54,105 nucleotides of DNA, from the NCBI GenBank assembly GCA_021371795.1, contig JAJFVK010000018.1, positions 1-54,105 on the forward strand, in the 5' to 3' direction. This DNA is from Planctomycetaceae bacterium. Lineage in GTDB: Bacteria > Planctomycetota > Phycisphaerae > Sedimentisphaerales > UBA12454. Below are positions 16,566 to 47,654 of this stretch, in pieces. A program made the position numbers and the translations under genes. Under the pieces are notes generated by a model. It saw only the letters and a program-made list of their open reading frames with translations, was not told where the DNA came from and ran no database searches. Each line of letters opens with the position of its first letter. Positions within the stretch are counted from its first letter, which is position 1.

Positions 16566-16591
16566 TGTCATTCCCGCGCAGGCGGGAATCT
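16566..16591. repeat. palindromic dispersed repeat between convergent genes
   Basis: ATTCCCGC-GCAG-GCGGGAAT is an 8-bp perfect stem-loop lying between the stops of the ABC transporter (+) and arfB (-). The same element in reverse orientation lies at 47611-47634 between der and mscS. Such hairpins can end transcription from both sides. Confidence 0.6.
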
Positions 16592-16607
16592 ATACATTTA
16601 AGTAAAA

Positions 16608-17046: not shown

Positions 17047-17177
17047 TGTCATTTCGACCGGAGTCTTGCGAAAGCAAGACAGAGCGGAGAAATCTTTTAA
17101 AAACAGAAAATTCCACAAATCTTCATTCTGCAATCTTCAATCTTCAATCATTCGTGTCTTAGTGTCTTCGTGGCTAT
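17047..17177. repeat. composite dispersed repeat
   Basis: This gap is built from three modules: TGTCATTTCGACCG...GAAATCT, then TTCCACAAATCTTCATTCTGC with repeats of CAATCTT, then TTCGTGTCTTAGTGTCTTCG. The first two modules recur in the same order at 26651-26741. The last two recur in order at 21552-21627. They are non-coding. Confidence 0.7.
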
Positions 17178-23247: not shown

Positions 23248-26200
23248 TCACACCTTTTTGCGAAGTATTTTTCTCAACACCGCGCATATCGTCTCCGGCT
23301 CAAGATATTTCCTGTCAAACCCTATATATACCGTCAGCGGGTCTGGAATCCGCAAATTCCCCGACACCTTGGCAAAAATATCGATAGCCTTTTTGGGATT
23401 GTCTTTTTCTATGGAGAAAACAACATCGCTTCCGCGTAGCGTAACTGCCCGAATTCCCGCCGCCGAAGCCAAAATCCGTATTTCCGACAGTTCCAGCAGC
23501 TTTTGCACTTCCGGACAAATCCGTCCGAACAGGTCGTTGAGTTCATCTTCGAGCATCTTCAAATCTTTATCGTTCCGCGCCGCCGCGATTCGCCGATAAA
23601 CATTCATCCTCTGCGAATCCGCCTGAATATAACTTCGCGGAATATAAACTGAAAATCCCAAATCGATGACCGCTGTCGGCTCTTTTTCCACAGGCTCATT
23701 TTTAAGTCTCCGTACCGCATCAGACAGCAGCTTACAGAACAACTCGAACCCGATGGTATTGATATGCCCAGACTGCTCCGGCCCCAGAATATTTCCCGCG
23801 CCTCGGATTTCCAAATCCCGCAGCGCAATTTTGAATCCCGCCCCAAGCTGTGAATATTCCTCAATCGCCTTGAGTCTCTTAACCGCCACCGGCGTAATCG
23901 GCCGATGCTGCGGCAAAAGCATATAAGCGTAAGCCTTGTGCTTGAACCGCCCCACTCTTCCGCGAAGCTGATGAAGCTGCGCTAGACCGAACCTATCGGC
24001 GTCGTTTATGATAATTGTATTGGCATTCGGAATATCAATTCCCGATTCAATAATCGCAGAGCAAATCAAAACATCAGTTTGCCCAAGCACAAATTTCACC
24101 ATCGCCTTTTCAAGTTCGTGCCTGTGCATTTGTCCGTGCGCAATATCGATTCGCACCTCCGGCACTAATTGCTGAATCTCGTCGGCGAATTTTTTAATCG
24201 TCTGTACCCTGTTATGCACAAGAAAAATCTGCCCCTGCCTGTTCAACTCGAAAAGTATTGCGCGTTTGATTGTTTCCCTGTCGAATTTTTTGACGTGTGT
24301 AACAACCGCGCGTCTGTCCAATGGCGGAGTAGTCAGCGAACTAATATCCCGCAAACCAAGCATCGCGAAATGCAGCGTGCGTGGAATCGGCGTGGCCGTC
24401 ATAGTCAGCACATCGACATTGACGCGAATTTTTTTCAGCTTTTCTTTATGCTCAACGCCGAACCTCTGCTCCTCGTCGATAATCAGCAGCCCCAAATCTT
24501 TAAATCCGACATCATTGCTCAAAAGCCTGTGCGTACCGATTAGAATATCGACATTGCCGCGCTTTGCCCGCTGAACAGTTTCCGCCGCTTCCTTTTTGGT
24601 TTTGAATCGATTAATGGATTCGACAGAAACCGGAAAATCCGCGAACCGCTGCGTAAAGGTGCGCTCGTGCTGAACGCAGAGTACCGTCGTCGGCACAAGC
24701 ACCGCGACTTGTTTGCCCGCCTCGACCGCTTTAAACGCCGCCCTCATCGCAAGCTCCGTTTTGCCGTAACCGACATCGCCGCAAAGCAGCCTGTCCATCG
24801 GCACAGCCTTTTGCATATCGGTCTTGATATATTCGTTCACCGTCTCCTGGTCAGGCGTCGGCTGATAAGGAAATGATTCTTCAAATTCGCGTTGCCAGTT
24901 CGTATCCGGCCCGTAAGTAATCCCCGGCATACTTTGCCGCCGCGCCTGCATATCCAAAAGCTCACTCGCAAGGTCGTTCACCGCCTGTGCGACTTTTTCT
25001 TTCTGCCGTTCCCATTTTTTCGTACCGATTGTACTTAATTTCGGCCGCAGTCCGGTTGTGCCGACATATTTCTGCACGAACCCGATATTCTGCATTGGCA
25101 CATGAATCAAAACATTGTCAGCGTATTGAAGCGTGAGAAATTCTTTTTTGCTTCCGTCTTTCTCAATCGTCTCAATGCCTTTGAATTTCCCGATTCCGTA
25201 ATTTATATGAACGACGTAATCGCCTTTGCTCAAATCCGCTGCGCTGTCGATAGAAACCGCAGTACTGATTGGCCGAACCGTCCGCCGAATAATCGTCTGC
25301 CCGAAAAGCTCGTGATGCGTCGCGATAATCGTTTTCGTATCATCGATTATAAACCCGCGATGAATAAATCCCGTTACAAGATAAAATTTTTGGGGTAATT
25401 TTTTTATCTCGTGCGCAATAATCTCCTGAACTCTTTTTATTTCCGCGCCGGTTTCACAATATAATTTTACATTCCATCCGTCATTGGCAAGTTCTGCCAA
25501 CTGCTGCAAAGACTGCCTGTGTCCCGTCCACCCCGGCACACCTTTGGCTTCAAATTGCTGCGTGCTTTTTATCCGCAGTTCGATATTATCTTCGCCTTGA
25601 GCAAATCTGCTGATGTGTACTTGTTTGAACTCGGAAAGTTTTTTACAAATTTCATCCCACTTATAAAATTTCCCCGGCTCGACAACTCTGCGAATAAAAA
25701 CATCCGCGACATCCTGCACATCGCTCGGCTCTTCGATAAAAATAATCGTGTCCGGCTCAAGAATATTTAAAAACAGCGTTTGATTTTCTTTAGTTTCTTC
25801 CGCGTTGCCGGATGTGATTGTGATGTTGTCAATATTTGTCGCCGAACGCTGCGAGTCGAGGTCGATTGTGCGAATGCTTTCGATTTCATCGCCGAAAAAT
25901 TCGACCCTTATCGCGATTGGCTGATTGGAATGCGCAGCCTGCCCTGAGCTTGTCGAATGGGACACCGGCGCGAAAATATCGATGATGCCGCCTCGCCGCA
26001 CAAACTGCCCCGGCATATCAATTCGCTCGACAGTTTCAAAACCATTGTCCGCAAGCCACTGGCAAATTTCGTCCATATCAACGACTTGCCCTTTAACCAG
26101 TGTTAACCCCTGCTCTAATAATTTCTCCGGCTTCGGCACCGGCTCCATCAATGCCTGAATCGATGTGGAAATTATCCTACAAGTTTGTTTAGCCCCGCCA

Positions 26201-26559
26201 TCATTACAATCCCCCTTGCGGGGACTTTGGCGGGGTTCTTTATCCGACACGATTTTCAAAACTAATCTTGCTCGTGCGGATGACGTTTCCTCTGTCGCGT
26301 CGACTATTTCCTCGCCCGCCCAGCCCGGCAGAGTCTCAATATTTTTGCCGCCAAATGCGATAATATCATCGACTGCATTATCTGCATCGTCGAGATGTCT
26401 GCTTATGTATAGGATAGGTTTATTGGTTTGCTGATGAATATGCAGGGCTAATAAAGGCGCAAAGGATCCCCACGTCCCGGCAATTTTTACCACCCCTGTC
26501 TGGGCGGCATTTAACTGCGAGATTATCTCGTGAGCATTCTTTAAATTTTCCAAATACAC
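23248..26559 (-). CDS. mfd: transcription-repair coupling factor
   Basis: Mfd removes RNA polymerase stalled at DNA lesions and recruits UvrA. The 1103-residue protein has a UvrB-homology N-terminal part (1-340), the polymerase-interacting domain (SKGDYVVHINYGIGKFKGIE), and a RecG-like translocase with Walker A GDVGYGKTE, DEEQ Walker B, TATPIPRT and the QLRGRVGR motif VI, then the C-terminal TRCF domain. Two short segments are foreign to the family and match dispersed DNA repeats: residues 107-126 (KEPRQSPRKGDCNDGGAKQ) and about 199-212 (SHSTSSGQAAHSN). Both keep the frame open and lie in the UvrB-like part, so the enzyme may still work. Confidence 0.95.
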   Translation of the reverse strand: MYLENLKNAHEIISQLNAAQTGVVKIAGTWGSFAPLLALHIHQQTNKPILYISRHLDDADNAVDDIIAFGGKNIETLPGWAGEEIVDATEETSSARARLVLKIVSDKEPRQSPRKGDCNDGGAKQTCRIISTSIQALMEPVPKPEKLLEQGLTLVKGQVVDMDEICQWLADNGFETVERIDMPGQFVRRGGIIDIFAPVSHSTSSGQAAHSNQPIAIRVEFFGDEIESIRTIDLDSQRSATNIDNITITSGNAEETKENQTLFLNILEPDTIIFIEEPSDVQDVADVFIRRVVEPGKFYKWDEICKKLSEFKQVHISRFAQGEDNIELRIKSTQQFEAKGVPGWTGHRQSLQQLAELANDGWNVKLYCETGAEIKRVQEIIAHEIKKLPQKFYLVTGFIHRGFIIDDTKTIIATHHELFGQTIIRRTVRPISTAVSIDSAADLSKGDYVVHINYGIGKFKGIETIEKDGSKKEFLTLQYADNVLIHVPMQNIGFVQKYVGTTGLRPKLSTIGTKKWERQKEKVAQAVNDLASELLDMQARRQSMPGITYGPDTNWQREFEESFPYQPTPDQETVNEYIKTDMQKAVPMDRLLCGDVGYGKTELAMRAAFKAVEAGKQVAVLVPTTVLCVQHERTFTQRFADFPVSVESINRFKTKKEAAETVQRAKRGNVDILIGTHRLLSNDVGFKDLGLLIIDEEQRFGVEHKEKLKKIRVNVDVLTMTATPIPRTLHFAMLGLRDISSLTTPPLDRRAVVTHVKKFDRETIKRAILFELNRQGQIFLVHNRVQTIKKFADEIQQLVPEVRIDIAHGQMHRHELEKAMVKFVLGQTDVLICSAIIESGIDIPNANTIIINDADRFGLAQLHQLRGRVGRFKHKAYAYMLLPQHRPITPVAVKRLKAIEEYSQLGAGFKIALRDLEIRGAGNILGPEQSGHINTIGFELFCKLLSDAVRRLKNEPVEKEPTAVIDLGFSVYIPRSYIQADSQRMNVYRRIAAARNDKDLKMLEDELNDLFGRICPEVQKLLELSEIRILASAAGIRAVTLRGSDVVFSIEKDNPKKAIDIFAKVSGNLRIPDPLTVYIGFDRKYLEPETICAVLRKILRKKV
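25925..25960. repeat. dispersed repeat inserted in frame in mfd
   Basis: GCCTGCCCTGAGCTTGTCGA is a copy of a widespread bacterial dispersed repeat unit. It codes for the odd SHSTSSGQA stretch of Mfd. Confidence 0.6.
26187..26241. repeat. 55-bp palindromic repeat, copy 1 (inside mfd)
   Basis: The segment from GTTTAGCCCCGCCA through AATCCCCCTTG to TGGCGGGGTT matches 27863-27918 with about four mismatches. The ends AGCCCCGCC and GGCGGGG are complementary, and CCCCC/GGGG forms an inner hairpin. It encodes residues 107-126 of Mfd. Confidence 0.8.
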
Positions 26560-26568
26560 TTTTACTTA

Positions 26569-26744
26569 TATAAAGATTGAAAATCTTCATTCTTCAATCT
26601 TCAATTTTCAATCGTTCTGGCAATCTCTAAAAATTAAAAAAAACAGACATTGTCATTTCGACCGAAGCGAAGCGCAGCAGGGAAATCTATTAAAACAGGA
26701 AATTCCACAAATCTTCAATCTTCAATCTTCAATTTTCAATCGTA
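26569..26744. repeat. gap filled by dispersed repeats
   Basis: The 5' flank of mfd holds two runs of CTTCAATCTTCAATTTTCAATCG and, at 26651-26741, the composite module TGTCATTTCGACCG...GAAATCTATTAAAACAGGAAATTCC shared with 17047-17150. No gene is seen. Confidence 0.65.
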
Positions 26745-27839
26745 TCAGTCTCCGAAGCACGTATTAACTTCGCGAGCGGCCTGAATCAATTGCGAATTGA
26801 CAGGCACTTTACGAACCTTTCCTGCAACCTGCGAAAGTGGAACACTCGATATTTTATTATTTTTCAATACGACGAGTCGATTCCTCGCGCCGCTCATAAC
26901 TAATTCCAGAGCCGCGTGTCCAAAACTTGTCGCTAATACTCTATCGTGAGCCGTCGGCCTTCCGCCACGCTGAATATAACCAAGCGTTACGCTGCGAGCT
27001 TCGAGCCCGAGCCCCATTTCAATTTGCCCCGCCAGTTTATTCGCAATTCCGCCAAGTCGAACACTCTCCGGACTGTACGCTACAGTTCTGCGAACTACCA
27101 TTTCGCCGCCGAGCTCTTTTGCGCCTTCAGCAACTGTGATAAGAGTATAAGTCTTGCCCCATTTGTTTCGTTCATTGATGAAGTCGCAGACATTTTTCAA
27201 TTTGTACGGAATTTCCGGAATCAAAATCACATCGCTTCCGCCCGCAACGCCTGCATACAGAGCAATCCATCCTGCGTATCTGCCCATCACTTCGACAACC
27301 ATAATCCGATGATGAGCGCTTGCGGTAGTTCGTAATTTATCGATTGCGTCTGTTGCCGTCGCAACCGCGGTATCGAATCCGAAAGTAAAATCCGTTCCCC
27401 AAAGGTCATTATCGATTGTTTTCGGCACGCCGATAATCGAAAGATTCCTGCCGGCAAGTTTTTCGGCGCTGGTCATTGTCCCATCGCCGCCTATACAGAT
27501 TAACGCATCGATTTTTTTCTGCCGCAGCGTACGATAGCAAAACGCCGACATATCTTTGAATACAACTTCGCCATTTTTATTTTTCACAGGGTACTTCGTA
27601 GGATTTGTCGTATTGTTCGAGCCGAGGATTGTGCCGCCGACTTCGAGAATATGGCTGACATCCCTATAGCTCAACGGCCTGATTCTATTTTCAATCAAGC
27701 CGAGAAAGCCGTCTTCGACACCCCAGACATTAATACCATATTTATTGATTGCCGTTTTCGTTACCGCCCTGATAACCGCGTTGAGTCCCGGACAATCTCC
27801 GCCGCCTGTCATTACCGCTATCGTCTTGATGTTACCCAT
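26745..27839 (-). CDS. pfkA: 6-phosphofructokinase
   Basis: This enzyme phosphorylates fructose 6-phosphate in glycolysis. The 364-residue protein has the donor loop TGGGDCPGLNAVIR (11-24), GGDGT (117-121) and PKTIDND (139-145) with the catalytic Asp, then MGRYAGWIA and the AEGAKE segment. It combines Gly120 (the residue associated with ATP use) with Lys140 (shared with pyrophosphate-dependent enzymes), a combination typical of the so-called group X ATP enzymes. The phosphoryl donor is therefore probably ATP but not proven. Confidence 0.92.
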   Translation of the reverse strand: MGNIKTIAVMTGGGDCPGLNAVIRAVTKTAINKYGINVWGVEDGFLGLIENRIRPLSYRDVSHILEVGGTILGSNNTTNPTKYPVKNKNGEVVFKDMSAFCYRTLRQKKIDALICIGGDGTMTSAEKLAGRNLSIIGVPKTIDNDLWGTDFTFGFDTAVATATDAIDKLRTTASAHHRIMVVEVMGRYAGWIALYAGVAGGSDVILIPEIPYKLKNVCDFINERNKWGKTYTLITVAEGAKELGGEMVVRRTVAYSPESVRLGGIANKLAGQIEMGLGLEARSVTLGYIQRGGRPTAHDRVLATSFGHAALELVMSGARNRLVVLKNNKISSVPLSQVAGKVRKVPVNSQLIQAAREVNTCFGD

Positions 27840-27862
27840 TTATTCACCCTTCACAAATAATT

Positions 27863-27918
27863 GTTTAGCCCCGCCAACATTACAATCCCCCTTGTGGGGA
27901 CTATGGCGGGGTTGTTTA
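27863..27918. repeat. 55-bp palindromic repeat, copy 2 (intergenic)
   Basis: This is the second copy of the AGCCCCGCC...GGCGGGG element, between pfkA and pepF. It is followed by an AATCAGTGTAATCTGCGATTA segment that also occurs at 21507-21534. Confidence 0.75.
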
Positions 27919-47550: not shown

Positions 47551-47610
47551 TAATAATTTCAGTTAATAAGAGCCGAGAGTACCTGACGCACAGAGCGGCA
47601 CAACAGGATA

Positions 47611-47634
47611 GATTCCCGCCTTCGCGGGAGTGAC
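47611..47634. repeat. palindromic dispersed repeat between convergent genes
   Basis: ATTCCCGC-CTTC-GCGGGAGT is the reverse-oriented partner of the element at 16566-16591. It lies between der and mscS stops and may terminate both. Confidence 0.6.
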
Positions 47635-47654
47635 AAGTGGGCGCAGGAACGACA

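Follow-up and report, generated by a model that had tools for sequence, protein, structure and literature searches.

Palindromic repeats, including a TTAG-tagged REP, stand in frame in loops of the transcription-repair coupling factor Mfd of a planctomycete and its relatives

The closest described counterparts of the locus reported here are REP elements that lie in frame within open reading frames, often those of DNA repair genes (Di Nocera et al, 2013, PMC3733652). In that work, different REPs were found at about the same site of recB in two Xanthomonas species, and the intragenic REPs of the GTAG class were associated with RAYTs. These elements are tagged GTAG or CGTC, whereas those of the planctomycetes carry TTAG or GTTTAG; moreover, mfd is not mentioned in PMC3733652, and the planctomycete case concerns several sites of one gene in about ten species. 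As reviewed in PMC10969869, the Rickettsia palindromic elements (RPE; Ogata et al, 2000, 2002) also enter conserved genes in frame and are read through, and some shorter REPs of R. conorii are RPE-4 and RPE-6 (PMC3733652). The planctomycete REPs could be said, by analogy, to share this behaviour, as they stand in frame in conserved genes (mfd, and a radical SAM gene in three species). RPEs are nevertheless of ~150 bp according to that review, compared with 51 nt for the element described below, and the passages of PMC10969869 consulted state no transposase link for them, in contrast to the RAYT link of the planctomycete REPs. The preliminary description of this DNA had proposed an insertion of the same kind as in Rickettsia, a comparison that may be kept as an analogy but not as membership, since the element is a RAYT-tied REP with a TTAG tag. 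A further point of comparison is provided by the REPIN/REPtron systems and their RAYT, or TnpAREP (Bertels and Rainey, 2011, PMC3116915; PMC6006769; PMC8266576), with which the planctomycete elements have in common a tag directly 5' of the hairpin, Y1 transposase genes bordered by REPs on either side, and inverted pairs (REPIN); some RAYT genes themselves hold frame-keeping REP insertions (PMC6006769). The canonical REPIN tag is however GT[AG]G, TTAG being absent from the texts of PMC6006769 and PMC8266576, and the planctomycete RAYTs score below the NCBIfam cut-off. A literature search for Mfd together with REP elements returned nothing, and the TTAG tag, the planctomycete RAYT groups and the recurrent entry of repeats into the same loops of mfd appear to be new with respect to the REP, RAYT and RPE literature searched.

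The window, that is the whole stretch of 54,105 nucleotides that was analysed, belongs to an assembly that is 98% complete in 28 contigs (hereafter the source genome), and all sequences considered come from metagenome-assembled genomes of uncultured planctomycetes. On its minus strand lies mfd (23248..26559), encoding the transcription-repair coupling factor as an intact open reading frame of 1103 amino acids, which is recognised in a profile search by TIGR00580 (971 bits against a cut-off of 800) and in which the Pfam domains UvrB_inter, CarD_TRCF_RID, DEAD, Helicase_C and TRCF are found. Foldseek confirmed the N-terminal Mfd fold, with 3hjh as the best match, and the matches of the UvrB-interaction domain to solved structures include the UvrA/TRCF complex. 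The gene is under purifying selection, with dN of 0.107-0.177, dS of 1.0-1.84 and dN/dS of ~0.1, and it can be surmised from its sequence that this Mfd would still work.

The first of the two sites of interest, site A (26187..26237, minus strand), is occupied by a TTAG-tagged REP of 51 nt, which stands in frame in mfd and codes for PRQSPRKGDCNDGGAK, at about residues 107-125. Its tag GTTTAG reads on the plus strand and precedes a CCCCGCC...GGCGGGG stem; another small hairpin lies within the loop of this stem. The observation from which this work started, a palindrome in mfd matching an intergenic copy, is borne out: 26185-26242 and 27861-27918 have 58 nt in common at 93% identity, and the elements proper, of 51 nt each (26187-26237 and 27863-27913), are identical at 48/51 positions. 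The element has a fold of -26.5 kcal/mol (z -3.8; 0/200 shuffles as stable), and four of its six frames contain no stop. Compared with the empty site of the relative G004, mfd is 54 nt longer here, a net difference of +18 amino acids. The segment is predicted to form a disordered loop, as the AlphaFold2 model of Mfd (mean pLDDT 83.9) gives a pLDDT <50 to residues 109-125, between a helix and a strand.

The characteristics of a REP, namely a palindrome of 20-60 nt with a short conserved tag 5' of its stem, several dispersed copies above chance and an association with a RAYT, are all found for this element. A similarity search of the source genome yielded eight near-full copies, in addition to shorter matches, and the hairpin pattern has 15 exact matches there vs 0 for the reversed pattern. 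Across 17 copies of the family from five genomes, the outer stem is kept through compensatory two-sided changes (CG, UA, AU and GC at one pair), with 19 two-sided cells vs 7.7 after shuffling (0/500 shuffles); the tag is GTTTAG or GTTAG, and copies of this family (family 1) lie within the RAYT array of the relative G003. The canonical GT[AG]G tetranucleotide is not the tag of the site A family, most copies of which are tagged TTTAG or GTTAG, and since TTAG is not a canonical tag, the element is classed as a variant and not as a canonical REP. When all 6-mers were scanned as tags over ~447 kb of the source genome, GTTTAG ranked only 16th of 3870, a scan that is too weak alone because the copies are few. 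In the sampled part of the same genome, TTAG hairpins are barely above chance (12 vs 5.4; sd 3.3, max 12), while the sample of G009 holds 33 vs 4.5 expected. As a separate observation, the inner hairpin AAGTCCCCGCAAGGGGGATTGTAA also occurs within a different palindrome of ~75 nt (CCCCTCTGATTTT...AAAATC...GGGGAT) at L009, L011, L012 and L013, near 1501, so that repeats are nested.

At site B (25937..25960, minus strand), a 24-nt insert, CCATTCGACAAGCTCAGGGCAGGC, codes in frame for HSTSSGQ in the UvrB-interaction domain, at a beta-hairpin tip where the model has a pLDDT of 58. It is a different repeat from that of site A. The preliminary description of a second, dispersed repeat coding for SHSTSSGQA stands as regards its distinctness, its frame and its position (residues 200-208), but not as regards its dispersal within the source genome, which holds one exact copy, one with 1 mismatch in 16 and weaker ones at 3 mismatches in 19. 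It is in relatives that the repeat is scattered, with up to 12 per genome and a control near 0, and the word repeat is therefore valid across genomes only. No transposase was found for it, and a literature search for its sequence gave no match. Among the Mfds examined, the insert is common only to the source genome and G002, where it occupies the identical nucleotide position with 24/24 letters, whereas third positions elsewhere in the two genes agree only at 50%. The content of the site is different in G037 (GGATTCCCGC...GCGGGAATGACA) and in G018 (two palindromic repeats). It was also seen that some TTAG hairpins (pattern matches in G030; L162, 905-954) carry within their loop a CCTGTCCTGAGC...GTCGAAGG piece of the site B kind, so that the two kinds of repeat are nested.

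That one mfd carries two different in-frame repeat insertions is supported by the empty sites of G004, G005, G007 and G010, and neither segment is shared by all orthologues, both being restricted to lineages. To call these insertions protein-creating, as had been done, is an overstatement, considering that they lie in a low-confidence loop and at a hairpin tip of the AlphaFold2 model. In an alignment of 40 planctomycete Mfds, the site A element is found in no other Mfd. The same four relatives are empty at site A, and five Mfds hold different repeats there, all in frame: in G002 another palindrome with 10 matches in its genome, in G001 several repeats in a row, in G006 GGGAATGACA units, in G009 an inverted pair of TTTAG hairpins, i.e. 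a REPIN, with 17 matches in that genome, and in Zod138 a REP cluster made of a row of CTAAA-ended units with clear TTTAG hairpins at both ends. A third loop, at residue ~390, to which the preliminary description did not refer, contains in-frame TTAG hairpins in 7/11 family Mfds (G001, which has two, G003, G005, G006, G009, G010 and Zod138), those of G005, G006 and G010 having been judged by eye and the others found by a strict scan as well, and in 0/29 Mfds from outside the family; in G002 the hairpin has perhaps decayed. The hairpin of this loop is nearly the same in G009 and Zod138, and its stems differ between G001, G006 and the rest. In a tree built on the C-terminal part of Mfd, the source genome groups with G001, then with G004 and G005, which makes the site A element most simply a gain in the source lineage. 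The same mfd loops have been repeatedly invaded by small in-frame repeats across about ten species. Such a natural series, in which the loops of a conserved repair protein vary at fixed positions with the mobile DNA that codes for them, relatives with empty sites serving as controls, makes it testable whether frame-keeping REP insertions are merely tolerated or become useful. A further TTAG hairpin was seen near the C-terminus of G009 Mfd (L028), at codon ~1083 of 1137, and could represent a fourth site.

Eight matches to Y1 transposases were found in the source genome, and one of them, L072, has the Pfam domain Y1_Tnp above cut-off. The motifs NDHVH and YVNNNP in the RAYT sequence correspond to the HUH motif and the catalytic tyrosine, and the best family for these RAYTs is NCBIfam NF047646 (REP_Tyr_transpos), with 51.7 and 30.9 bits, under its cut-off of 80. 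L072 has GTTTAG hairpins on both flanks, the closely related RAYTs of G006 and G007 have them alongside too, and a RAYT of the L072 type in G009 has copies, directly adjacent on either side, of the REPIN found in the mfd of that genome. A RAYT of another subfamily in G003 (71092-71580) lies within an array of GTTAG hairpins, two family-1 elements among them, and around 19 RAYTs of this subfamily 35 TTAG hairpins are present within 700 bp vs 2.25 with permuted tags. This subfamily, the best linked to family-1 elements, is absent from the source assembly, where only the L072 type was found; it may have been lost, it may fall in an assembly gap, or L072 may be the mover. These planctomycete TTAG REPs, with their candidate transposases, form a group that scans for GTAG tags would miss. 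Another RAYT, L074, with a partial copy ~350 bp away, was considered as the mover of family 1 and rejected, its immediate flanks being GTAG-tagged palindromes of another family. Apart from this, it was noticed that L074 (1456-2067), with these palindromes on both sides, carries the peptide GADLRVCP, which a copy of the same palindrome, inserted in frame in this RAYT gene, apparently encodes.

The frequency of such entries was compared with a background of sampled stretches of three genomes (~1.07 Mb coding), in which there are ~0.009 intragenic TTAG hairpins per kb, against 0.25 per kb in the 11 family Mfds (9 hairpins); with the source genome left aside, 10 Mfds hold 8 intragenic TTAG REPs vs 0.31 expected. 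Mfd is ~25-fold enriched for these elements, with a significance that is nominal, as mfd was picked via the finding, the species are related and the comparison set was hand-picked from the scan list. Elsewhere, a B12-binding/radical SAM gene has an in-frame TTAG hairpin in an inter-domain linker in G000, G001 and G003 (L006 1501-1555, L059 1501-1552, L227 3850-5151), and single in-frame hairpins occur in genes for MnmE (G003), RdgB/XTP diphosphatase (G009) and a LysE-like protein named by eye (G009) (L219 6399-7556, L257 3330-4028, L242 10357-11055).

We propose that the TTAG-tagged REP is a non-autonomous hairpin copied or moved, probably as single-stranded hairpin DNA, by a Y1/HUH tyrosine transposase (RAYT) of this planctomycete family. 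It would have landed in mfd of the source lineage, in the simplest case once this had separated from G001, and with a length that is a multiple of three and most of its frames open, it would have been read through and translated, Mfd thereby gaining ~18 residues in the loop that connects the final helix of its N-terminal part to the UvrB-interaction domain. At site B, a different small repeat would have entered independently and in frame, in a hairpin loop of the latter domain. It can be hypothesised that loops A, B and ~390 are hit repeatedly because insertions are tolerated there and removed by selection elsewhere in Mfd; indeed, the disordered or hairpin-tip location of the sites and the purifying selection on mfd make tolerance and selection for frame enough to explain the sites, and a function gained from the inserts is possible. 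That a RAYT-mobilised REP stands in mfd, retained under selection for frame and for loops that tolerate it, is in our opinion highly probable. We are much more doubtful of a broader proposition, in which Mfd would be a preferred and recurrent landing gene for RAYT-REPs, with three or four loops repeatedly colonised in frame by fast-evolving and possibly functional inserts, on account perhaps of single-stranded DNA at the locus or of an adaptive gain in repair control. The enrichment of Mfd could also be taken as a sign of domestication, selection keeping REP-coded loop peptides that alter UvrA recruitment or Mfd autoinhibition and thus causing the frequent hits in mfd; the location of site B in a domain whose structural matches include the UvrA/TRCF complex would agree with this, as would the filling of residue ~390 in most family Mfds. 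We consider it improbable, given that the insert sequences vary by species and are missing from some, that the site A segment is predicted to be disordered, and that inserts also occur in linkers encoded by other, unrelated genes, the B12/radical SAM gene for example.

The counts on which the idea of a hot spot relies would be inflated if the insert of site B or of residue ~390 were one old insertion, passed on vertically or by recombination and precisely lost several times. The 24 letters that the source genome and G002 share at the same nucleotide of site B, and the nearly identical hairpins of G009 and Zod138, are what such a history would leave; but the source genome groups with G001, G004 and G005, all without site B, and complete identity is unexpected under plain descent when third positions elsewhere have diverged by half. 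As the stems at residue ~390 also differ between G001, G006 and the rest, and the site A inserts come from clearly different repeat families, we find this explanation rather unlikely, though worth keeping in mind. The strong fold of the coding-strand RNA and the twin copy in the probable leader of pfkA could suggest that the hairpin acts as RNA, through mRNA stability, ribosome pausing or bypass, with an incidental peptide. Simple translation is, however, what one would expect from the frame being kept, in the Mfds of the family, through the inserts at A, B and ~390, and the position relative to the start codon is not fixed, which leaves little probability to a role of this type. Still less credible is an artefact of sequencing or assembly, or a pseudogene: the sequences are metagenome-assembled, and near residue 955 the mfd of G001 shows a gap or a break of frame, but independent MAGs agree in the kind of insert and in the loops that hold it, and mfd in the source genome has an intact reading frame and a low dN/dS.

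The intergenic copy of the site A REP (27863..27913, minus strand) is located ~23 nt upstream of the start of pfkA, probably in its 5' leader, and is absent upstream of pfkA in G001, G004 and G005. The downstream gene (26745..27839, minus strand) encodes a phosphofructokinase (Pfam PFK, E 2.9e-102). The possibility that this copy is a decayed fragment of mfd, raised at the outset, was ruled out, the similarity ending at the element and further copies being present elsewhere. The gap between pfkA and mfd contains an imperfect palindrome, TGTCATTTCGACCGAAGCG...GGGAAATCT (26651..26689, plus strand), which by eye looks like the repeat inside G002 mfd at site A. AT-rich AATCTTCAATCTTCAATC repeats are found in intergenic gaps of the window at 17100, 21542, 26564, 26692 and 43233, and a palindrome pair, GTCATTCCCGC...GCGGGAATCTA, is found at 16566-16593 and 47608-47635, the same kind standing at site B of the mfd of G037.
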